Positions 7,596 to 36,663 of a DNA stretch of 49,762 nucleotides are shown here, piece by piece. The stretch spans positions 1 through 49,762 of the forward strand of contig JAIXZE010000446.1 of the NCBI GenBank assembly GCA_027489875.1, read 5' to 3'. Each line of letters starts with the position of its first letter. Position 1 is the first letter of the stretch. The notes beneath the pieces are model-generated. The model saw only the letters and a program-made list of their open reading frames with translations. It was not told where the DNA came from and did not search any database. The translations under genes were made by a program, and so were the position numbers. This DNA is from Verrucomicrobiales bacterium. GTDB lineage: Bacteria > Verrucomicrobiota > Verrucomicrobiia > Limisphaerales > UBA9464.

Positions 7596-7667
7596 GGGGC
7601 GGCGATATCCTCATCGCCATGGGAAAGGCTTCGGGACCGCGACGAGGACGTCGCCACCCCGTTGCAT
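7596..7667. repeat. GTCGCC palindrome-family element (core only)
   Basis: Inverted-repeat core: GGGGCGGCGATATCCTCATCGCC on the left (7596 on) and GGCGACGAGGACGTCGCC-type sequence on the right, separated by about 20 bases. The same core occurs at 12844-12918, 22671-22740, 27009-27120, 34994-35127, 36529-36663 and 48569-48640, and as a tandem array at 15491-15722. It can form a long hairpin and may act as a transcription barrier. Confidence 0.8.
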
Positions 7668-10667: not shown

Positions 10668-11678
10668 TCAGCGGAGCCCTTCCTCCAAGATCTCGTACGC
10701 CCGTCCACGCTGTTCGGGTGGGAACCGATGGGGTCCCTCCGGATGCACCACTTCAGGAGCCACACCACCCTCGGCCCAACGCGGCCGCGCCTTCTCCACC
10801 ACGCGGTCCACGCTCTGCCACCGGAAGTTCGAATCCCCCTTCGGCGCGCTGATGAACACCCGCCGCGGCGCGATGGCACCGAGCACATCGTCGAAGTCAA
10901 AAGGCAACGCCTCCAACCGCCCGCGATACGCCAGCAACCCCGGCATGTACCGCAGCTGGCACCAGCCGCGTTCCTCAGCCCACACCGCCGGATTGCCGTC
11001 GTAGTAATCCCGGAACGAGTCGAAGCCGCAGCTGGTCACCACCACGCGGATCCGTTCGTCGAAGGCCGCCGTGAACAACCCGTTGTGCCCGCCCAGCGAA
11101 TGACCGATCGACCCGAAGCCGCGGTTCGTGGACACGAACGGCAGCGACGCCAGCAGGTCCAAGCCGCGCACGTTGTCCCAGACCGCCTTCATCGTCCCGC
11201 TTTCGAAGCCGAGACCGCGAACGTCCGGTTGGTGATCCGCGAGCAACGGATACGCCGGTGCCAGCACCACGAACCCGCGCTTCACCAGTTCCACACCGTA
11301 GGCGTCATCGGGAGAATTCCCGAGACCCACCACCACCTTCCGTCCTGCCGCATGCGTCTGGTGCAACCCCAGCACGGCCGGGTGACGCGTGCCATTGGTC
11401 AGCGCGGATTCCGGGAACATCAGGTACGCAGGAACCGCGGCTCCCGGCTGGCTCTCGTACGTCAGGTCCCGCAACACCCAGCCGTCCCGACGCACCTCCG
11501 AAAGCACCACCACCTTGGGAACGTCGCGCGGTCCCGACGGCATGCGGCCCATCACCGATTCCATGGCGCGCAGGGATTCCGCGCGGGTCCGTAGCGCCGC
11601 AGACGCCGACTGCCCCTGCGTCGGCAGGGCCACGAACACAGCGCACAGCAACGCCCACACTGCTCCGGGAACGTTCAC
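10668..11678 (-). CDS. Secreted alpha/beta hydrolase (esterase-like)
   Basis: A protein of 336 residues with an N-terminal signal peptide (VWALLCAVFVALPTQGQSASA), so it is exported. The alpha/beta hydrolase core shows the nucleophile elbow GHSLGGHNG, a candidate acid in SAPKGDSNF and a candidate His in HPEGPHRFP, in the right order. HPAVLGLHQTHAAGRK supplies the oxyanion-side motif. It resembles acetyl-xylan-esterase or dienelactone-hydrolase relatives common in polysaccharide-degrading Verrucomicrobiota. The start is GTG and overlaps the stop of the upstream oxidoreductase by 4 bases (GTGA), so the two are co-expressed. The substrate is not evident; an acylated sugar would fit the partner gene, but that is inference. 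Confidence 0.85.
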   Translation of the reverse strand: MNVPGAVWALLCAVFVALPTQGQSASAALRTRAESLRAMESVMGRMPSGPRDVPKVVVLSEVRRDGWVLRDLTYESQPGAAVPAYLMFPESALTNGTRHPAVLGLHQTHAAGRKVVVGLGNSPDDAYGVELVKRGFVVLAPAYPLLADHQPDVRGLGFESGTMKAVWDNVRGLDLLASLPFVSTNRGFGSIGHSLGGHNGLFTAAFDERIRVVVTSCGFDSFRDYYDGNPAVWAEERGWCQLRYMPGLLAYRGRLEALPFDFDDVLGAIAPRRVFISAPKGDSNFRWQSVDRVVEKARPRWAEGGVAPEVVHPEGPHRFPPEQRGRAYEILEEGLR

Positions 11679-12748
11679 AACTTCACCGTCCGCCCGGTTG
11701 CCGCACTCTTCACCGCGGCATCCACGATCTCCTGGCCAATGCGGCTGATCGGGAGGCTGACCGGTCCCTGCAAGGGTTCGCCCCTATCGAGGCAATGCAG
11801 CAGGTATTCCACCGGATTCCGGTGCGGTGCCTTGGGCAAGGGGGCCGCGACCATCGCGGGCTTCGGCCGACGCCGCGTCTGCACCGTCACGAAGGCCTCG
11901 TAATCGTCGCTGCGGATGGTTCCCTCCGTGCCCGCGATCACGAACCCGCACGACGGCTGCGGCGGGATCGTCCACGGATCGGTGAAGGTTCCCCACCGGG
12001 TCTCGAACTTCGACAACCCATGGGCGTACCGGGCCACCACGATGGAGTGTTCGTCGACCTCCAACCCCGGCGGCTGGTCCACCACCGCGGTCACATCGAT
12101 CGGCCGGCGTCCGCCCTGGTACCACGTCCCCAGCGTCGTGCCGTAGCCGAGGTAATCGAGCAGGGAACCGCCGCCATGCTTCCGCTGGTAAAACCAGGAA
12201 TGGGGTTTCTCCGCGGCCACCTGTTCGGCCGTCTTCTCATGCTTGTCCGCGCCGTGCCACAACGGCCCGCGGTTGCCGCCGAAATGCCAGACGTTCAACA
12301 CCTCGCCGATCACCCCCGACTGCACCAGATCGTGGGCCTTCCGATGCGACCGCAGCCATTGCAGCGGCCAGTTGATCATCAGCGTCCGATCCTTCGGCAT
12401 CGCCTTGATCATCGCATCGGCCTCCTTGAGCGAGGCGGCGAAGGGCTTTTCCACGATGAGATGGGCACCGGCCGGGGCCACGCGCCGCACCCACTCGCCG
12501 TGACTGGACGCCGCCGGGCACAGGATCACCACGTCCGGCCGGGTCTTTTCGAGGCACTCGGCCTCATTCGTGAACACCCGGTCCCGCGGGATCCGGAGCT
12601 TGCGCACGGCTTCTTCCATCCGCGCGGGCTGCTCGTCCGAAATCCCCACCAACTCGACCTGCGGATGCTCCACCGCCATGCGGAGGAGATCCCCCATGTG
12701 AAAGTGGTCGAAGTTGATGCCGGCAATCTTCCAAACGCGCTTTTTCAT
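11675..12748 (-). CDS. Gfo/Idh/MocA family oxidoreductase
   Basis: I start this at MKKRVWKIAGINF (ATG at 12746-12748), giving 357 residues; a start at 12778 is also possible. The N-terminal Rossmann fold opens with KIAGINFDHFHMGDL rather than the usual GxGxxG, a variant glycine pattern. The catalytic-lysine motif of the family is clear (AHLIVEKPFAASLKEAD, EKP). The C-terminal half has HKAHDLVQSGVIGEVLNVWHFGGNRGP and GGGSLLDYLGYG, typical for sugar or polyol dehydrogenases. There is no signal peptide in this reading. It is the first gene of a two-gene operon with the secreted hydrolase (GTGA overlap). The substrate is unknown. Confidence 0.9.
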   Translation of the reverse strand: MKKRVWKIAGINFDHFHMGDLLRMAVEHPQVELVGISDEQPARMEEAVRKLRIPRDRVFTNEAECLEKTRPDVVILCPAASSHGEWVRRVAPAGAHLIVEKPFAASLKEADAMIKAMPKDRTLMINWPLQWLRSHRKAHDLVQSGVIGEVLNVWHFGGNRGPLWHGADKHEKTAEQVAAEKPHSWFYQRKHGGGSLLDYLGYGTTLGTWYQGGRRPIDVTAVVDQPPGLEVDEHSIVVARYAHGLSKFETRWGTFTDPWTIPPQPSCGFVIAGTEGTIRSDDYEAFVTVQTRRRPKPAMVAAPLPKAPHRNPVEYLLHCLDRGEPLQGPVSLPISRIGQEIVDAAVKSAATGRTVKL

Positions 12749-12843
12749 CGGGATCGACAAGGCTGGCGCACGAACCATCAATGGCAAGCCTTGAGGGAAC
12801 GGGAAGCGGAACGGGGGGCATCGGGACAGGGGCCCCAACTCAA

Positions 12844-12918
12844 ACGGGGTGGCGACGTCTTCATCGCCCTGAGCCTGGGCCGCAAGAGGGCGATGAGGAC
12901 GTCGCCGCCCCGTTGCAG
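12844..12918. repeat. GTCGCC palindrome-family element
   Basis: Left arm ACGGGGTGGCGACGTCTTC, right arm GGCGATGAGGACGTCGCCGCCCCGT, with a loop of about 20 bases. It fills most of the gap between the oxidoreductase gene and the small ORF behind kup, where it could attenuate read-through. Confidence 0.8.
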
Positions 12919-12925
12919 GGGGGCG

Positions 12926-13129
12926 TCAGGGCAGGTTCGCGATGATCGGTTCCACCAGTTCGGCACCCTTCAGCAACCGGCAGAACTCCTTCTTCGTGGC
13001 CTCGTGGTGCGTGCCTTCACCGGACTCGCGGTTCTTGAGCTTCTTGTAGCCCACCTTGAGCCGTTCGAGATGAACGACCCGGATGAGCTCGCCGTCCGCC
13101 TTCCAGATCTGTCCTTGCTGCAGTTTCAC
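12926..13129 (-). CDS. Small conserved-looking hypothetical protein
   Basis: A protein of 67 residues, GTG start (MKLQQGQIWKADGELIRVV). It is charged and compact, with no signal or membrane segment. The first part looks like a small beta-barrel (QGQIWKADGELIRVVHLERLKVGYKKL). The tail HHEATKKEFCRLLKGAELVEPI has the K-x-EF-x-RLLK-x-A-x-L pattern I associate with short verrucomicrobial proteins of unknown function. It lies 49 bases behind kup on the same strand and may be on its transcript. I cannot assign a function. Confidence 0.65.
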   Translation of the reverse strand: MKLQQGQIWKADGELIRVVHLERLKVGYKKLKNRESGEGTHHEATKKEFCRLLKGAELVEPIIANLP

Positions 13130-13178
13130 GGCGCAAGGCTGCCCCTGCGCCGCGCGCCTGACCAGCCCAGACCCGGGC

Positions 13179-22670: not shown

Positions 22671-22740
22671 GAACGGGGTGGTGACGTCCTCGTCGCCGTT
22701 CCAAATCCGTTTCCATGGCGATGAGGACATCGCCGCCCCG
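22671..22740. repeat. GTCGCC palindrome-family element
   Basis: GAACGGGGTGGTGACGTCC with CTCGTCGCC pairs with GGCGATGAGGACATCGCCGCCCC. Placed 16 bases after the glycosyltransferase stop, it is the only hairpin available to end the H-NOX transcript. Confidence 0.8.
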
Positions 22741-27008: not shown

Positions 27009-27120
27009 CGCATCTTGACACTGCCCCCGTTTGGAAAGGATCCGGGGCGGCGATGTCCTCATCGCCATAGGAATGGCTTTGGAACGGCGACGAGGACGTC
27101 GCCACCCCGTTGCATGCAGG
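27009..27120. repeat. Palindromic element with decayed right end
   Basis: The left outer arm is GCATCTTGACACTGCCCC, followed by the GGGGCGGCGATGTCCTC core and its partner GGCGACGAGGACGTCGCC. The right outer arm is almost lost. The complete version is at 36529-36663. The remaining part of the gap (26941-27211) holds an AACTGG fragment and a TTGAAACTTCAAAC motif, and must carry promoters for both flanking genes. Confidence 0.8.
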
Positions 27121-27211
27121 GGCCGTCTCTTGAAACTTCAAACTCCTCCCCACAACGGCATGCCCCTTGAAGTTTCCCTCCCAAGACGGAACCCTCGCGC
27201 CTCGTTCCGCT

Positions 27212-28321
27212 GTGGATTCATCCCGTCATTCTGTTCCTGCCGTCCTGCTTGCCGACCCGGCCACCGCCGGGCTGCCGGTGGTGGCGCTGACGTCGCTGGA
27301 CCGCCTCATCGTCGCGGCGCACCGCGGCGGGTGCCGACCGATCACGGTGGTCGCGACCGGACCTCTTCCCGATCTTCGCCGGACCCGCGCCCTCGGCATC
27401 GCCTTTGAGGTCGTGGCCCAAACACCACCGCTCACCCACGGCACGCTGGTCGCCAGCACTGGCCAACTGGTGCTCGCCGGCGACATCCGCGAACTCACCG
27501 AACACGGTGGGCGCCTGACAACCCTCGACGGAACACCGCTCCCCTCCGGCCGGATCGAGAAACCCACGGCCGACCCAGCCAATCCCTGGAAGGACCTGCC
27601 TGGCGTCCCCGCCCGTGGCGTGGCCCGCCCCATCACCGACCCCTCGACAGCCCACGCTGCCGGCGAAGCCCTCTGGGCGTCCCTCTCCAGTTCCTCCGAT
27701 GGCACTGTCGACCGCTACTTCAACCGCCCCGTCGGACGCGTCCTCTTCTCCCGCTGGCTCGTCCACACGCCCATCACCCCAAACCAGATTTCCGTCGCCG
27801 CCACCGTCCTGGGCGTCACCGCCGGCGTCCTGTTCGGGTTCGGCATCCAGAACCTGTCTATCCTCGCGGCCATCCTCTTCCAGATCTCCGCCATCATCGA
27901 TTGCGTCGACGGCGACGTCGCGCGCGCGGTCTTCAAGGAATCGCCGCTGGGCAAGTGGCTGGACATCATCGGCGACCAGGTCGTCCACGCCTCGGTCTTC
28001 GCTGGAATCGCCATCGGTCTCTGGCGTCAGGGAGCGCAGGGCCCCTTCCTCTGGCTGGGTGGCAGCGCGGTCATCGGCGGGCTGATCGCCTTCCTGGTCA
28101 TCCTCCGCGGCATGCGTACACCCGGCCCCGCCAACACCCGGCTCCAGAAGCTCATCGACGCCGCCACCAACCGAGATTTCTCCGTGCTCGTGCTGATCCT
28201 TTCCTTCTTCGACCGCCTCGGCTTCTTCCTGTGGGCCGCCGCCATTGGCAGCCATGTGTTCTGGATCCTTGCGCTGATGCTGCAGCGCCAGCCACGCGCG
28301 GATTCAACAACCGCGCGATGA
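27212..28321 (+). CDS. CDP-alcohol phosphotransferase with N-terminal nucleotidyltransferase-like domain
   Basis: About 369 residues if it starts at the GTG at 27212 (MDSSRHSVPAVLLAD); a TTG at 27167 is an alternative, and neither has a ribosome binding site. The first ~150 residues (PAVLLADPATAGLPVVALTS, LDRLIVAAHRGGCRPITVV) look like a degenerate GT-A nucleotidyltransferase fold lacking the NTP-binding GxG signature. The C-terminal ~190 residues are membrane-embedded and hold the complete CDP-alcohol motif DCVDGDVAR...G...D...D at residues 230-255. Such enzymes move a phospho-alcohol between a CDP-activated substrate and an acceptor. It overlaps the next gene by 4 bases (ATGA), and a LicC/PntC-like nucleotidyltransferase lies 1.5 kb downstream. 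A lipid head-group role is inferred. Confidence 0.9.
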   Translation: MDSSRHSVPAVLLADPATAGLPVVALTSLDRLIVAAHRGGCRPITVVATGPLPDLRRTRALGIAFEVVAQTPPLTHGTLVASTGQLVLAGDIRELTEHGGRLTTLDGTPLPSGRIEKPTADPANPWKDLPGVPARGVARPITDPSTAHAAGEALWASLSSSSDGTVDRYFNRPVGRVLFSRWLVHTPITPNQISVAATVLGVTAGVLFGFGIQNLSILAAILFQISAIIDCVDGDVARAVFKESPLGKWLDIIGDQVVHASVFAGIAIGLWRQGAQGPFLWLGGSAVIGGLIAFLVILRGMRTPGPANTRLQKLIDAATNRDFSVLVLILSFFDRLGFFLWAAAIGSHVFWILALMLQRQPRADSTTAR

Positions 28322-29304
28322 AGCCCGCCGCGAAAACCGCCCTGCGGATCCTCCTGCTGGGCCTCGGCATCGGACTCTTCGCCGTCTACCTCGGCCGCAG
28401 TGGCGTCCGCGAGGTCTTTGGCGCATTCGCCAAACTGGGGGCCGCCGCGCCCCTGGTCCTGATCCCGTACTTCGCGGTCTATATCGTCGACGCCATCGGC
28501 TGGCGCCTGACGTTCCTTCCACCGGTGGCGCTGCGCTTCGTCACCTTCTGGCGCATCCGCTGGATCGGAGAAGCCGTCAACAACCTGATCCCCTCCGCCT
28601 ATATCGGCGGGGAAGCCCTGAAGGTGTACCTGCTGCGTCAGCGCGGCGTGGACGCCAGCGCCGCTACCACTGCGGCCATCGTTTCGAAATCCGCACAGAC
28701 CCTCGCGCAACTCCTGTTCATCTGTGCTGCCGCCGGACTTTTCCTCCGTATCGCTCCCGAGGTCCCGTGGCTCCGGCGCAGCCTCGCGGTCGTCCTCGGA
28801 GGCGGGCTCGCCGCCGTCGGGGTGTTGTTCTGGATCCAGTCCCGCGGCGTGTTCGGCTCCGTCCGTCAACTCACCGCGGCCGTCGGCTGGAATCCCGCGT
28901 GGCTTGAATCCCGACGCGAGAAGCTGGAGGCCACCGATCACCAGATCACCGGATTCTACCGCCATCATCGCGGCCGCTTCCTCGCGAGCACCAGCATGTA
29001 CCTCACGGGCTGGATGCTCGACGCCACCGAGATCTACCTGGTGGCCCATCTTCTCGGCCAACCGATCACGCCCACCCAGGCCCTCGTCGTCGAAGCCTTC
29101 GTCGGGGTCGCCAAGGTCATGGGCATGTGGGTCCCCGGTGCCATGGGCGTCCAGGAAGGCGGCATCCTCCTGATCGGCCGCACCGCCGGCCTGCCCGAAC
29201 CCCTGTGCCTCGCCTACGCCGTCCTCCGACGTGCCCGCGAAATCCTCTTCGTCGGCGTCGGCTGGATCCTCTTCTACCTTTCCCGGATCAGTCCGAAGGG
29301 GTGA
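28318..29304 (+). CDS. UPF0104/lysylphosphatidylglycerol-synthase-TM family membrane protein
   Basis: An integral membrane protein of 328 residues with about eight hydrophobic segments. The family pattern is visible: an N-terminal segment (ALRILLLGLGIGLFAVYL), RIRWIGEAVNNLIPSAYIGGEALKVYLL with the conserved N-x-x-x-P region, and GVAKVMGMWVPGAMGVQEGGILLI. Relatives include the flippase half of MprF, HpnL and AglD-like proteins, which handle lipids across the membrane. The catalytic aminoacyl-transferase half of MprF is absent. The ATG overlaps the CDP-alcohol phosphotransferase stop, so a role in moving or protecting the product lipid is a reasonable inference. It is not proven. Confidence 0.88.
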   Translation: MKPAAKTALRILLLGLGIGLFAVYLGRSGVREVFGAFAKLGAAAPLVLIPYFAVYIVDAIGWRLTFLPPVALRFVTFWRIRWIGEAVNNLIPSAYIGGEALKVYLLRQRGVDASAATTAAIVSKSAQTLAQLLFICAAAGLFLRIAPEVPWLRRSLAVVLGGGLAAVGVLFWIQSRGVFGSVRQLTAAVGWNPAWLESRREKLEATDHQITGFYRHHRGRFLASTSMYLTGWMLDATEIYLVAHLLGQPITPTQALVVEAFVGVAKVMGMWVPGAMGVQEGGILLIGRTAGLPEPLCLAYAVLRRAREILFVGVGWILFYLSRISPKG

Positions 29305-29819
29305 GGCGTTGGGGAGTTCCCAGATTTCAGTGCCCAGTTGCCAGTGCCGCTGGAACACCTTCGACATACCGTGCTCGTGCCCCGAAGGGGCAACAGTTGA
29401 AAGCGGGGTGGAACCCCGGGAACCACGCCACACAACGTCCTCTGTGCCCTGAAAGGGCACACGGAACAGCGTGCATGGGGTCACCGTTCGCCCCGTTGGG
29501 GCGAGGTGTCATGGGGGTGGGGTGCCCCTGGGTTCCGCTCCGCTCCACCCAGGGCTGTCTCCGTCCGCCGCGTTGCGGCGAGGACGGGCGTGGGATCCTT
29601 CTGGAAACTGGCAACTGGCCTCTGGGAACTCCCCGTTTGTAGGCCGCGTGCCCCCACGCGGCGCTTCATCCATCCGCCGGGTGAGGGGACCCGGCCTTCA
29701 CACAGAGTTGCCAGTTTCCAGAAGCCAGTTCCCAGAAATCTGGAAACTGGCAACTGGGAACTGGCAATTCCCTCCGGGCTTCAAACCTGAAACTCCCCCC
29801 GCCCCACTATGGCCAAACG
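29305..29819. other. Repeat-packed gap between flippase-like and nucleotidyltransferase genes
   Basis: 515 bases without a gene. In order: an AACTGG tract (29317-29345), a multi-hairpin cluster (CCCCGAAGGGG, GCCCTGAAAGGGC, GCCCCGTTGGGGC, CCGCGTTGCGGCG; 29380-29590), an AACTGG tract (29600-29634), one unit of the 74-base repeat (29638-29700), a fold-back AACTGG tract (29702-29772) and a TTCAAACCTGAAAC motif. Four families share one gap, so this looks like a repeat landing site. Confidence 0.8.
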
Positions 29820-30611
29820 GTGCCAGCCCGGTTAAAGTTCGGCGTGGATTCCGCTGTCATCTATGCCGCCGGACGGGCAACCCGCCTGGGACCCTCGTTT
29901 GCGAACACCCCGAAGATCCTGCTCCCGGTCGCCGGTCGCACCCTCCTCGACCGCCACGCGGAGAACCTCGCCGCCGTCGGCGTGAAGAACCTCTTCCTTG
30001 TCACCGGCCATTGCCGCGACCAGATCGCCGCGGTCATCCCGGAACTCTCCGAGCGCCACGGCATCCGCATCTACGAACTCCACAACCCGGACTTCACCGA
30101 GGGCAGCGCCATCAGCATGCACGTCTCCCTCGCCGCCATCGAACCCGCCGCCCAGTCCATCCTCATCATGGACGGCGACGTCCTCTACGGACCCGAACTC
30201 CTTCGCCGCCTCATCGATTCCCCCGCGCCCACCACCATGCTGGTGGACTTCGGCGTCGAGGCTCAGGACGACGACCCCGTCCTCGCTCCCATCCGCAACG
30301 GACGCCCCTTCGATCTCGTCAAGAAATGGGCCGGCAACGCCGACCGCGTCGGCGAATCCGTCGGGTTCTTCAAGATCGCCGCCGAACACCTTCCGTTCCT
30401 GGCGGCGCAGACCCGCGCCCGCACCCTCGGCATCCATCGGCGCGATTCCCTCGACGAAGTCCTCCGCGCCATGACCGTCGCGGGCCTGTTCCACTTCGAG
30501 GATGTCACCGGCCAACCCTGGACCGAGATCGATTTCCCCCACGATGTCGCCTACGCCCGCGACGTCATCATGCCCGCATTGGCCGCGGCCAAGACCCGGC
30601 TGAACGCCTGA
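29820..30611 (+). CDS. LicC/PntC-like NTP transferase (phospho-alcohol cytidylyltransferase candidate)
   Basis: 263 residues from the GTG at 29820; a second GTG at 29844 (MDSAVIYAAGRATRLG) gives a more typical N-terminus. The GT-A nucleotidyltransferase signature is clear: AVIYAAGRATRLGPSFANTP with PKILLPVAGRTLLDR. Metal-binding Asp residues are in IMDGDVLYG. NPDFTEGSAISMHVSL, GESVGFFKI and the end WTEIDFPHDVAYARD match the LicC (phosphocholine) and PntC (aminoethylphosphonate) cytidylyltransferases better than sugar-1-phosphate enzymes. It could supply the CDP-alcohol for the phosphotransferase at 27212. The actual alcohol is unknown. The 3' end overlaps the convergent glycosyltransferase by 61 bases. 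Confidence 0.88.
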   Translation: MPARLKFGVDSAVIYAAGRATRLGPSFANTPKILLPVAGRTLLDRHAENLAAVGVKNLFLVTGHCRDQIAAVIPELSERHGIRIYELHNPDFTEGSAISMHVSLAAIEPAAQSILIMDGDVLYGPELLRRLIDSPAPTTMLVDFGVEAQDDDPVLAPIRNGRPFDLVKKWAGNADRVGESVGFFKIAAEHLPFLAAQTRARTLGIHRRDSLDEVLRAMTVAGLFHFEDVTGQPWTEIDFPHDVAYARDVIMPALAAAKTRLNA

Positions 30612-31657
30612 TCGAGGCGATCGTCGGACTGTCGCACCCAGCATTGGAAGCGGTCATGGGCGACCCCAACGTTCAGGTCGTCCAACCGTGACAGGTCAAA
30701 CCGGTCCGAGGCCCGACCGAGGCCCGCACGTTCCAGATCGAGCGCGTTGAGCATCTGTTCAATGTGCCCTTCCACCGGCACGGCCAACGCCGGTTTCCCC
30801 AGCCACGCCGCCTCGGAAAGCGACTCGAACCCCGCGCTGCACACCACCGCCCGCGCCGTCGACATCATCCGCAGGAACTTGGCCGCGTGCAGTCGGTGCA
30901 CCCTCACCCCGTTGCCCAGCGACTCCTCTTCCGGCGCACCCGGACGTTCGCAGAAGACGTGCAGCGCCGAAGCGCCGAAACGCAGCTGCCACGCCATCAG
31001 TTCCGGGAGGTAACCCGCGTTCAACAGGTACACGAGGACGTGCCCGTGGTTCGCCCGGCCGTCCATCTGCAACAGGTCATCCCGCAGCAGCGGCGGCCCC
31101 ACCACCGTCCGGTCGTCCACCGGTGTCGCATCATAGAAAGAAAGCGCGTACCGGAGGCTCGCCTTGCCCGTCGCCGAAACAAACCGGCGAAGTCCCCACT
31201 GCGCCGGACGCTTCGTGGACAACCGGGGATATTGCGGGTGCGGCAGCATGTATTGATGCCCAACCGCCAGCACCGGCACCCCGATCCCACCCCGCCGGTG
31301 ATGCCAGCCCACCAACGGCTCCAGAAAGTTCACCAACAGGTCCGGCTGCGTCTCCTGCAAGACGGCGTCCATGCGCCGCAGGCTCGCCCGATAGGATCCC
31401 ATCCGGGAAACCAACTGCCACAGCGTCGCCGGCAGATTCACGCGCCGTTGCCCCCGATAGACAAACCCCGGACTCCGCAGGGGCGTCACCGGCACGTCGA
31501 ACCCACGCTCAAAAAAGTCCGGCCAACTCCGGTTGGGATGCGCCCCCGCCATCACGGCCACCACCGCGTGGCCCCGCCGCCGGCACCAGTCCCGCAGGGC
31601 CAACGCCTGCGTCATGTGCCCCCGCCCCTCTCCCTGCACCGCGAATGCGATCTTCAT
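30551..31657 (-). CDS. GT-B glycosyltransferase (MurG-like fold)
   Basis: 368 residues. I start at MKIAFAVQGEGRGHMTQALAL (ATG at 31655-31657), an obvious GT-B N-terminus with the glycine-rich GEGRGH loop; the longer frame upstream is only the reverse reading of its neighbour. The C-terminal domain shows VLVYLLNAGYLPELM, RAVVCSAGFESLSEAAWLGKPALAVPVEGHIEQMLNAL, the acceptor/donor loop typical of MurG-like and monogalactosyldiacylglycerol-synthase-like enzymes. Such enzymes glycosylate lipids or lipid-linked intermediates at the cytoplasmic face of the membrane. It is co-directional with, and overlaps by 149 bases, the LpxH-like phosphoesterase upstream, so they are tightly coupled. The target lipid is unknown. 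Confidence 0.88.
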   Translation of the reverse strand: MKIAFAVQGEGRGHMTQALALRDWCRRRGHAVVAVMAGAHPNRSWPDFFERGFDVPVTPLRSPGFVYRGQRRVNLPATLWQLVSRMGSYRASLRRMDAVLQETQPDLLVNFLEPLVGWHHRRGGIGVPVLAVGHQYMLPHPQYPRLSTKRPAQWGLRRFVSATGKASLRYALSFYDATPVDDRTVVGPPLLRDDLLQMDGRANHGHVLVYLLNAGYLPELMAWQLRFGASALHVFCERPGAPEEESLGNGVRVHRLHAAKFLRMMSTARAVVCSAGFESLSEAAWLGKPALAVPVEGHIEQMLNALDLERAGLGRASDRFDLSRLDDLNVGVAHDRFQCWVRQSDDRLDQAFSRVLAAANAGMMTSRA

Positions 31658-32378
31658 GGAATCGGATGAGCTCGAACGAACCGTCCCAGTGCTCGACCAG
31701 CGCGGAGCAACTCTCCACCCAGTCGCCACAGTTGAAATAGTCGAGCCCGTGCACCTTGCGCATCTCGGCCCGATGGATATGCCCGCAGATCACTCCGTCC
31801 ACTCCGGCCCCCGCCGCCAACCGCACCATTCCCTCCTCGAACTGGGTCACATACTGCACCGCGGATTTGGCCTGGAACTTGAGCCACGAGGACACCGACC
31901 AGTATCCAAAACCCATGCGCCGCCGCGCCCGGTTGAAGTACAGGTTGAAATCCAGGATGCCCGTATAGAGGCGCGAGCCCACCCGCTCCAGCAACCGGTT
32001 GAAGTGCACCAACCCATCCAGCTGGTGCCCGTGCAACACCAGGAACCGACGCCGATCCGCCGTCACATGGATCGCCCGTTCCACCAAGCGCAAGCCACCG
32101 AGCGGCATCCCGACGAACCCCTGCAGGAATTCGTCATGATTCCCATAGATATAGGTGACCTTGGTCTCCTTCCGGTTCTTCCGGAGGATTTTCTGGACGA
32201 CGGTGTTCGCGTCTTCACTCCAGGACCACTTCCGGCGCAGTTCCCATCCATCGATGATGTCCCCGACGAGATAGAGGTACCGGCACTCCGCATCGCGCAG
32301 GAAGGCCAGCAACGTATCCGCCTGCGCATGGCGGCTGCCCAGATGAACATCCGAGATCCAGATGGAACGGTATTGCAT
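31509..32378 (-). CDS. LpxH-like metallophosphoesterase (UDP-2,3-diacylglucosamine diphosphatase family)
   Basis: 289 residues. The calcineurin-like two-metal site is complete: SDVHLGS, GDIIDGW, GNHDEF, HGHQLDG and CGHIHRAE in order. Length and context resemble the UDP-2,3-diacylglucosamine diphosphatase branch, but the substrate of this subgroup is often uncertain, so a lipid A role should not be assumed. The fold seems to end near GSFELIRFHEDR. The last 50 residues, rich in Gly, Ala and Pro, are read from DNA that also encodes the N-terminus of the glycosyltransferase in another frame. That suggests a lost stop codon or a long overlap. It is the first gene of a two-gene unit. Confidence 0.9.
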   Translation of the reverse strand: MQYRSIWISDVHLGSRHAQADTLLAFLRDAECRYLYLVGDIIDGWELRRKWSWSEDANTVVQKILRKNRKETKVTYIYGNHDEFLQGFVGMPLGGLRLVERAIHVTADRRRFLVLHGHQLDGLVHFNRLLERVGSRLYTGILDFNLYFNRARRRMGFGYWSVSSWLKFQAKSAVQYVTQFEEGMVRLAAGAGVDGVICGHIHRAEMRKVHGLDYFNCGDWVESCSALVEHWDGSFELIRFHEDRIRGAGRGAGAHDAGVGPAGLVPAAGPRGGGRDGGGASQPELAGLF

Positions 32379-34993: not shown

Positions 34994-35127
34994 TGTGCAT
35001 CCTGATGCTGCCCTCGTCTGGAACGGGGTGGCGACGTCCTCGTCGCCGTTTCAAAGCCTTTCTCAGGGCGATGAGGACATCGCCGCCCCAAAACCACTCT
35101 CCAAAGGGGCAGTGCCAGGATGCGCCC
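34994..35127. repeat. 134-base palindromic element with outer and inner inverted repeats
   Basis: The outer arms are GTGCATCCTGATGCTGCCC and GGGGCAGTGCCAGGATGCGC. The inner arms are GGGGTGGCGACGTCCTCGTC and GGCGATGAGGACATCGCCGC. Together they make an almost complete hairpin of about 134 bases. The best-preserved sibling is at 36529-36663. There is no ORF inside, so it resembles a MITE. Confidence 0.88.
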
Positions 35128-36541: not shown

Positions 36542-36663
36542 CACTGCCTGCATTTGGAAAGGATTCGGGGCGGCGATGTCCTCATCGCCTTGGGAATGGC
36601 TTTGGAACGGCGACGAGGACGTCGCCACCCCGTTCCATGCGGGGCAGTGTCCAGATGCGCCCC
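36529..36663. repeat. 135-base palindromic element, best-preserved copy
   Basis: The outer arms are GGGCGCATCTTGACACTGCC (36529-36548) and GGCAGTGTCCAGATGCGCCC (ending 36662). The inner arms are CGGGGCGGCGATGTCCTCAT with CGCC, and GGCGACGAGGACGTCGCCAC with CCCG. The centre is GGAATGGCTTTGGAAC. There is no ORF of its own. The left arm overlaps the end of the Sel1-repeat gene and supplies its stop codon. Relatives are at 34994, 27009 and 48569, with cores elsewhere. Confidence 0.9.

Follow-up and report, generated by a model that had tools for sequence, protein, structure and literature searches.

A conserved cassette of CDP-alcohol phosphotransferase, HpnL-like and PntC/LicC-like nucleotidyltransferase genes in a Verrucomicrobiales bacterium, a candidate part of a phosphonolipid-type pathway

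Layout of the three-gene cassette

The window analyzed here, a stretch of 49,762 nucleotides from the genome assembly of a Verrucomicrobiales bacterium, contains three genes on the same strand that encode, in this order, a CDP-alcohol phosphotransferase (CAPT), a membrane protein of the LPG_synthase_TM family that resembles HpnL, and a nucleotidyltransferase (NTP), as the first-pass annotation of this DNA had reported. The CAPT gene (27212..28321, + strand) lies in an open frame that can be extended to an alternative TTG start at 27167 and ends with the stop codon at 28321; GTG 27212, the start originally chosen, is a reasonable one. The gene for the membrane protein, a putative flippase (28318..29304, +), begins at an ATGA in which its start codon and the stop codon of CAPT overlap, as noted at first pass. 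This protein matches LPG_synthase_TM (PF03706) with 95.4 bits (cut-off 33.4) and the HpnL family TIGR03476 with 166.1 bits, under the cut-off of 195.65. An intergenic stretch of about 540 bp (29305..29843), in which inspection of the sequence reveals direct and inverted repeats, separates it from the NTP gene; in several relatives the two genes overlap or abut. The NTP frame spans 29820-30611 (+), and comparison with the locus of a relative (L035) points to GTG 29844 as the likelier start (29844..30611).

The order and strand of the three genes are conserved in 13 of the 18 loci of relatives, so that the cassette is more than a chance arrangement. Lack of a conserved neighborhood had been named in advance as grounds for abandoning a common pathway; the relatives show the opposite.

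Folds and active sites of the two enzymes

The CDP-alcohol signature D..DG..AR...G...D...D is located at 27899..27976 (+), and all eight of its residues (D230, D233, G234, A237, R238, G247, D251 and D255, numbered from 27212) are present in the translation and invariant in 18 aligned sequences, in agreement with the perfect motif noted earlier. CAPT also scores over the threshold of the Pfam family CDP-OH_P_transf (PF01066; 45.2 bits, cut-off 22). The AF2 model of the protein (pLDDT 89), in which long helices are seen, aligns with the structure of AF2299 from Archaeoglobus (4O6M) with Z 27.5 and rmsd 2.7 over 319 of 369 residues (model range 7-360; 21% identity over the alignment). Judged by the model, the two proteins share the whole architecture, that is, a cytidylyltransferase-like N-terminal domain and a six-TM CAPT fold, and the window CAPT accordingly falls into the AF2299-like class. 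The N-terminal domain, residues about 7-157 (27230..27682, +), adopts in the model a cytidylyltransferase-like fold that aligns both to the corresponding domain of AF2299 and to IspD-type cytidylyltransferases (Z 13.5), but the GxG(T/S)R...PK motif is absent, and none of its invariant residues (L29, D30, R31, R38, G40, R57 and R101) belongs to the nucleotide-binding set. The degenerate GT-A-like domain, which had been likened to the IPCT/DIPPS enzymes, is therefore real; described as unusual, it nevertheless has a solved precedent in AF2299, which CAPT matches over its full length. The donor substrate of AF2299 is CDP-glycerol, as reported (PMC4634129). In CAPT, as in AF2299, the N-terminal domain would be a non-catalytic relic or scaffold.

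The structures closest to CAPT are AF2299 and IPCT-DIPPS, and its top NCBIfam match is NF041135 (IPCT/DIPPS; 68.8 bits). Furthermore, an alternative inositol-lipid cluster of Bacteroidetes (BVU_RS13095/13105/13115) combines, similarly to the window, an NTP with a CAPT and has an LPG-synthase homologue in its vicinity (PMC9246714). These similarities could be taken to indicate a CDP-inositol/di-inositol-phosphate or glycerophospho-inositol type of solute or lipid pathway. However, the match to NF041135 is far below the equivalog cut-off of 580 bits, which the NTP does not approach either (51.3 bits), and the NTP is much closer to PntC than to IPCT. The Bacteroidetes cluster is linked to a HAD hydrolase and to inositol-1-phosphate synthase (MIPS), whereas the latter (Inos-1-P_synth, PF01658) is found neither in the window genome nor in any of the 18 cassette-bearing relatives; the three genomes that possess it, among 96 relatives, all lack the cassette. 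With MIPS missing, the inositol route is rejected as the main reading, and we consider it very unlikely.

The NTP matches NTP_transf_3 with 60 bits (cut-off 27), and its best PDB match in profile searches is the 2-aminoethylphosphonate (AEP) cytidylyltransferase PntC of Treponema denticola (Tde-PntC, 6PD1; E 2.6e-16, residues 2-247), followed by the phosphocholine cytidylyltransferase LicC (1JYK/1JYL; E 8.1e-11), with the inositol-1-phosphate cytidylyltransferase 2xme at 5.6e-4. Structural comparison also places Tde-PntC first (6PD2, Z 30.4; 6PD1, Z 29.5), ahead of GMPPB (24.8), IPCT-DIPPS (24.5) and the more distant LicC (24.3). The residues invariant in cassette NTPs are R14, K24, D110, D112, K160, D204, W226, E228 and D230, among which R14, K24 and K160 align with Arg15, Lys25 and Lys153 of Tde-PntC, whose replacement lowered the activity of the enzyme according to the mutagenesis data cited here (PMC6697681). 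Thus, at 20% identity, the fold, the full-length alignment, the catalytic Arg/Lys/Lys set and the acidic metal-site residues of the PntC class are all found in the NTP, which, as predicted from sequence and model, is clearly PntC/LicC-like, and the first-pass assignment of its motifs stands. The possibility that the NTP is a sugar-1-phosphate nucleotidyltransferase next to unrelated genes that form no pathway appears remote: many GlmU/RmlA/MurU-type families do score weakly on this protein, but all far under their curated cut-offs, and the shared gene order and strand argue against unrelated neighbors.

The amine site deserves separate consideration. Compared to Tde-PntC, the NTP has Asp instead of Glu at the equivalents of positions 104 and 196; at the amine-contacting Glu196 position, LicC likewise has Asp and five proteobacterial phosphonate-cluster enzymes have Glu. 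The Asp105/Asp192-type site of LicC is represented by D110 and D204 (alignment to Tde-PntC; equivalence as given for LicC in PMC6697681). This Asp site is not diagnostic of LicC, because the verrucomicrobial NTPs encoded next to PepM possess it as well. In the window clade, the NTP differs from the PepM-linked enzymes by Ala instead of Gly at position 12 and Leu instead of Tyr at position 203, changes that, by sequence, could reflect another substrate. Gly12 is present in 7/7 PepM-linked NTPs vs. 2/18 others; this correlation was dropped, since only two independent pairs remain once kinship is considered, and it is not significant.

Related clusters and phosphonate genes

The claim that no system with this exact set of genes had been described does not survive comparison with the literature: pepM, ppd, AEPT, NTP transferase, CDP-alcohol phosphatidyltransferase, 2OG-Fe(II) oxidase and hpnL are depicted as one predicted phosphonolipid cluster of Nostoc and Burkholderia (Fig. 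7 of PMC5987646, after Yu et al., 2013), and clusters of this type are annotated in Mycetohabitans and Roseomonas. The predicted cluster shares with the window the co-occurrence of CAPT, HpnL-type and PntC-like NTP genes, whereas the window lacks its pepM, ppd, linked AEPT and oxygenase. In Mycetohabitans, the operon reads CAPT - 2OG oxygenase - LPG-synthase-domain protein - NTP - aepX - aepY - AEPT, and all three proteins of the window have homologues in it (29, 30 and 38% identity), although its 231-aa CAPT has no counterpart of the extra N-terminal domain. No characterized transferase and no pepM-less phosphonolipid route were found in the literature searched.

Six-TM CAPTs are said to take soluble acceptors, with extra helices in the lipid-acceptor enzymes, and AF2299 and AfDIPPS are described as not processing lipids (PMC4634129). 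In a less favored alternative, the activation step would be unchanged, but CAPT would use a soluble compound or a glycan as its acceptor alcohol and so yield, instead of a lipid, a glycan or solute tailored with AEP (or ethanolamine phosphate). Against this speak the HpnL-like protein gene that adjoins CAPT and the genes in other loci that point to membrane lipids, namely MlaA next to CAPT in marine relatives and VacJ, MMPL and hopanoid genes around the Roseomonas cluster, as well as the published prediction itself, which in the cited figure is a phosphonolipid (PMC5987646).

In relatives of the window bacterium, the cassette is linked to phosphonate synthesis. PepM, with its EDKxxxxxNS motif, is encoded divergently next to CAPT in 10 of the 44 GTDB loci that contain CAPT; Ppd and AEP transaminase accompany it in eight of these, and PepM stands alone in L110 and in L126, whose contig breaks off within the PepM gene. 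Among the 96 relatives, which overlap with the GTDB set in that several loci come from the same genomes, PepM and Ppd exceed their cut-offs in the same four, and all four carry CAPT, which is present in 18/96 (Fisher p 0.0009). This count, and the assignment of the window genome, refer to matches of at least 190 bits; at E 0.001 there are 32/96, of which 14 weak matches (64 bits or less) were left out as probable paralogues. On the CAPT tree, the PepM label requires five changes for the 10 PepM-linked rows and therefore does not define a single clade. In a phylum-wide sample of 288 genomes, with at most six candidates scored per genome, PepM was over the cut-off in 16, and no full-length CAPT orthologue was detected beyond the window genome, an absence that is not firm under this scoring. 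A plasmid search with CAPT yielded only four distant matches.

The window genome itself (assembly 89% complete) has no PepM match (TIGR02320) and no Ppd over the cut-off, and neither these genes nor an AEP transaminase are among those surrounding the cassette. A true AEP transaminase (PhnW) is encoded on another contig, beside a DUF5690 membrane protein. PhnW exceeds the cut-off in the window genome and in 14/14 PepM-less cassette-bearing relatives, compared to 30/78 cassette-free ones (Fisher p 9e-6, kinship ignored); by families of the order outside its own, it occurs in 5/5 with the cassette vs. 9/37 (p 0.002). Its presence partly reflects kinship, since the three cassette-free members of the genus also have it. 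In 3 of the 11 cassette-bearing relatives with surveyed PhnW contigs, the PhnW neighbors tested are PbfA, a PhnX-like hydrolase, PhnA or PhnY, all of them genes of AEP breakdown (of the 16 PhnW contigs retrieved, all but L164-L167 were examined). The best phosphonatase match in the window genome has 40.4 bits (cut-off 220).

Unlike PntC of T. denticola, the window NTP is not fused to AEPT and comes from a genome without PepM. This absence of PepM and Ppd, the Asp pair at the amine site described for LicC (PMC6697681) and the differences at positions 12 and 203 would be compatible with a cassette that has shifted to phosphate substrates, in which the NTP forms CDP-ethanolamine or CDP-choline in a Kennedy- or Lic-like manner, CAPT produces PE/PC-like lipids or decorates glycans, and the window genome involves no phosphonate. 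Against this, choline kinase (PF01633, the kinase family searched) has no match in the window genome or any cassette-bearing relative, although other kinases could serve. In addition, PhnW tracks the cassette, and the position-12 link is not significant, so that this shift seems rather unlikely.

Predicted pathway and its implications

We moderately favor the view that the three genes make up the half of a phosphonolipid-type (phosphonyl-tailoring) pathway that covers activation, transfer and translocation, with salvaged AEP or a close phosphate analogue as the head group. The NTP would use CTP to activate a C2 phosphonate or phosphate that carries an amino group, AEP being the most likely substrate; CAPT would then transfer the head group of the resulting CMP/CDP conjugate onto an acceptor alcohol, which is probably a lipid, with release of CMP; and the HpnL-like protein would carry the product over the inner membrane. 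Substrate, acceptor and flipping are what we infer here. Of the first-pass interpretation, the PntC/LicC-type NTP, the CAPT of the AF2299 or IPCT/DIPPS kind, the conserved neighborhood and a role in head-group activation and transfer are supported; what fails is the absence of a described system. The window genome does not appear to form the C-P bond, and, as it lacks the head-group-making half, the head group is probably scavenged AEP or a related compound such as phosphoethanolamine.

It can be tentatively proposed that bacteria without C-P synthesis take up AEP from the environment and withhold part of it from PhnW-dependent breakdown, for activation by a PntC-like enzyme and transfer to the lipids of their own membranes. 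If such salvage occurs, orphan tail modules would outnumber complete clusters in this group (PepM lies beside CAPT in only the minority of loci given above), and phosphonolipid producers could therefore not be counted by pepM alone, the gene described as a marker for recognizing phosphonate producers (PMC6697681; PMC8931226). Phosphonolipids made from scavenged AEP by pepM-less bacteria would add a hidden sink to the phosphorus cycle; a module shifted to a phosphate head group would instead be a Kennedy-type route in Verrucomicrobia. The tailoring step that follows cytidylyl activation has been called enigmatic in the PntC work (PMC6697681), and CAPT is a candidate for this step.

Organization and conservation of the cassette

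The cassette, which is real, conserved and functionally coherent, consists of three genes on the plus strand: a CDP-alcohol phosphotransferase (CAPT; 27212-28321), an HpnL-like LPG_synthase_TM membrane protein (28318-29304), the ATG of which overlaps the CAPT stop codon, and a nucleotidyltransferase (NTP; 29844-30611). It is preceded by an amidohydrolase gene and followed by genes for an MJ1255-type glycosyltransferase and an LpxH-like phosphoesterase, all on the opposite strand; these neighbors are seen around the cassette in genus members only, where the latter two genes (30551-32378, minus strand), which overlap in the window, are kept as a pair. The gap between the membrane protein and NTP genes (29305-29843) contains direct and inverted repeats and is absent in several relatives. 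A GC-rich 35-base dispersed repeat has five copies in the window on both strands (7627-7661, 22674-22708, 27075-27109, 35024-35058 and 36598-36632) versus none expected from shuffles; one copy lies directly upstream of the CAPT gene.

Strong CAPT orthologs (190 bits or more) were identified in 18 of the 96 relatives searched, in addition to the window genome. The membrane protein gene adjoins CAPT in 17 of these 18 loci, and 13 carry all three genes in conserved order; among the other five, two are fragments or lie at contig edges, two have no NTP nearby, and one has a different NTP gene. A scan of GTDB yielded 44 CAPT loci (42 with Verrucomicrobiota titles, one from Desulfobacterales and one from a Binatota MAG), with the membrane protein in 37 and an NTP in 29 (25 of the window type, one of them partial, and 4 of another type). 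In a marine subclade, CAPT adjoins a gene for the lipoprotein MlaA (11324-13147 in locus L127, with matches in L131-L134), and most members lack the HpnL and NTP partners.

Phosphonate synthesis genes and the nucleotidyltransferase

The first-pass annotation knew of no described system with this exact gene set. That statement does not hold because the set has been described: the predicted phosphonolipid genes of a lichen Nostoc comprise a CDP-alcohol phosphatidyltransferase, a 2OG-Fe(II) oxidase, an NTP transferase, pepM (phosphoenolpyruvate mutase), ppd (phosphonopyruvate decarboxylase), AEPT (2-aminoethylphosphonate [AEP] transaminase) and hpnL, with a homologous cluster in Burkholderia (PMC5987646, which cites Yu et al. 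2013). Among annotated genomes, Mycetohabitans rhizoxinica has the same set and Roseomonas marmotae has it except for the oxygenase; tblastn also detected these genes in unannotated Burkholderia multivorans and Cupriavidus records. Identity between the window and Mycetohabitans proteins is 29% for CAPT (membrane domain only), 30% for the membrane protein and 38% for NTP. On the R. marmotae plasmid p1318-3, the phosphonate cluster directly adjoins shc, hpnH, other hopanoid genes, MMPL and VacJ.

Within the GTDB loci, PepM adjoins CAPT in 10 of 44, and 8 of those 10 also encode Ppd and AEP transaminase. The EDKxxxxxNS motif is present in all nine full-length PepM sequences and in one truncated one (L126). 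In locus L041, from the relatives, NCBIfam scores exceed the cut-offs for PepM (390.7 bits; 319.55), Ppd (436.7; 312.5) and PhnW/AEPT (478.4; 400.8). Among the 96 relatives, PepM and Ppd pass their cut-offs in the identical 4 genomes, all with CAPT (Fisher p 0.0009). A HalD/2OG-Fe(II)-type oxygenase or TauD/TmpA-like dioxygenase, which perhaps hydroxylates the phosphonate, is encoded inside some cassettes, upstream of CAPT in five loci and also at 12151-13152 in L128. Distant, shorter CAPTs share contigs with PepM-family matches in other genomes of the phylum (G135:C21, G154:C37, G221:C107, G222:C261 and G297:C257).

A profile of 14 NTP orthologs, compared with the PDB, best matches the AEP cytidylyltransferase PntC of Treponema denticola (E 2.6e-16, positions 2-247), followed by the phosphocholine cytidylyltransferase LicC (8.1e-11), with inositol-1-phosphate cytidylyltransferase 2xme far lower (5.6e-4). 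The predicted NTP structure (mean pLDDT 91.9) is likewise closest to PntC (Z 30.4, rmsd 1.9, 244 residues; all other matches at most 24.8). In the profile alignment, PntC Arg15, Lys25, Asp106 and Lys153 correspond to R14, K24, D112 and K160; these four residues are conserved without exception in the 25 cassette sequences and the 5 proteobacterial ones compared. The amine of AEP is contacted in PntC by Glu104 and Glu196, equivalent to LicC Asp105 and Asp192 (PMC6697681); the window NTP has Asp110 and Asp204. Because the PepM-linked verrucomicrobial NTPs have the same Asp pair, these positions cannot separate AEP from phosphocholine. PepM itself carries a fused C-terminal NTP domain with Glu at the position of the catalytic Arg15 (9/9 full-length sequences), and cytidylyl transfer may therefore be the task of the separate NTP.

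Absence of PepM and distribution of PhnW

In the window genome, which spans 6.2 Mb at 89% completeness, searches detected neither PepM (only a sub-threshold PF13714 fragment) nor inositol-1-phosphate synthase, and for Ppd only non-specific relatives. Because PepM is also absent from all eight other genomes of the genus, five of which carry CAPT, its absence is unlikely to stem from a gap in the assembly. The genome does encode PhnW on a separate contig (C221, 9694-10773; 462 bits, over cut-off), next to a DUF5690 membrane protein. PhnW passes the cut-off in 14/14 cassette-bearing relatives without PepM versus 30/78 cassette-less ones (p 9e-6, inflated by kinship) and, counted by families outside the own family, in 5/5 versus 9/37 (p 0.002); the three cassette-less genus members also have it. 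Among 11 cassette-bearing relatives with PhnW contigs listed, PhnW adjoins PbfA, a PhnX-like hydrolase, PhnA or PhnY in three, and accordingly is catabolic there; inspection by eye found no such neighbor in the others. The distribution and neighbors of PhnW agree with AEP salvage, but no phosphonatase over cut-off was found in the window genome.

The phosphotransferase and the predicted pathway

All eight CAPT signature residues are present and invariant across 18 orthologs. The AlphaFold2 model, built from 18 sequences (mean pLDDT 89.0), aligns over its whole length with AF2299, an Archaeoglobus CAPT of solved structure (Z 27.5, rmsd 2.7, 319 residues), and with the Archaeoglobus IPCT-DIPPS protein (Z 25.5, rmsd 4.1, 336 residues); IspD-type cytidylyltransferases match the N-terminal part (Z 13.5).

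The NTP, with its PntC-like fold and residues, would convert CTP and, presumably, AEP (or a phosphoethanolamine-like substrate) to CMP-AEP and PPi. The CAPT, with the fold and motif of its family, would then transfer AEP from CMP-AEP, the likely donor, to a putative acceptor R-OH, yielding AEP-O-R and CMP, and the HpnL-like protein, judging by its family, might perform translocation. MlaA beside CAPT in the marine relatives and VacJ near the Roseomonas cluster speak for a lipid acceptor; however, soluble acceptors are reported to go with six-TM CAPT enzymes, whereas lipid-acceptor enzymes have extra helices (PMC4634129), and the modeled window CAPT looks six-TM, which disfavors a lipid acceptor. 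In function, the cassette seems to correspond to the tail half of the predicted phosphonolipid pathway. It is nevertheless not classed with that pathway, since the genes that form the C-P bond were searched for and are missing. Its interest lies in this decoupling of an activation and transfer cassette from the genes for C-P bond formation.
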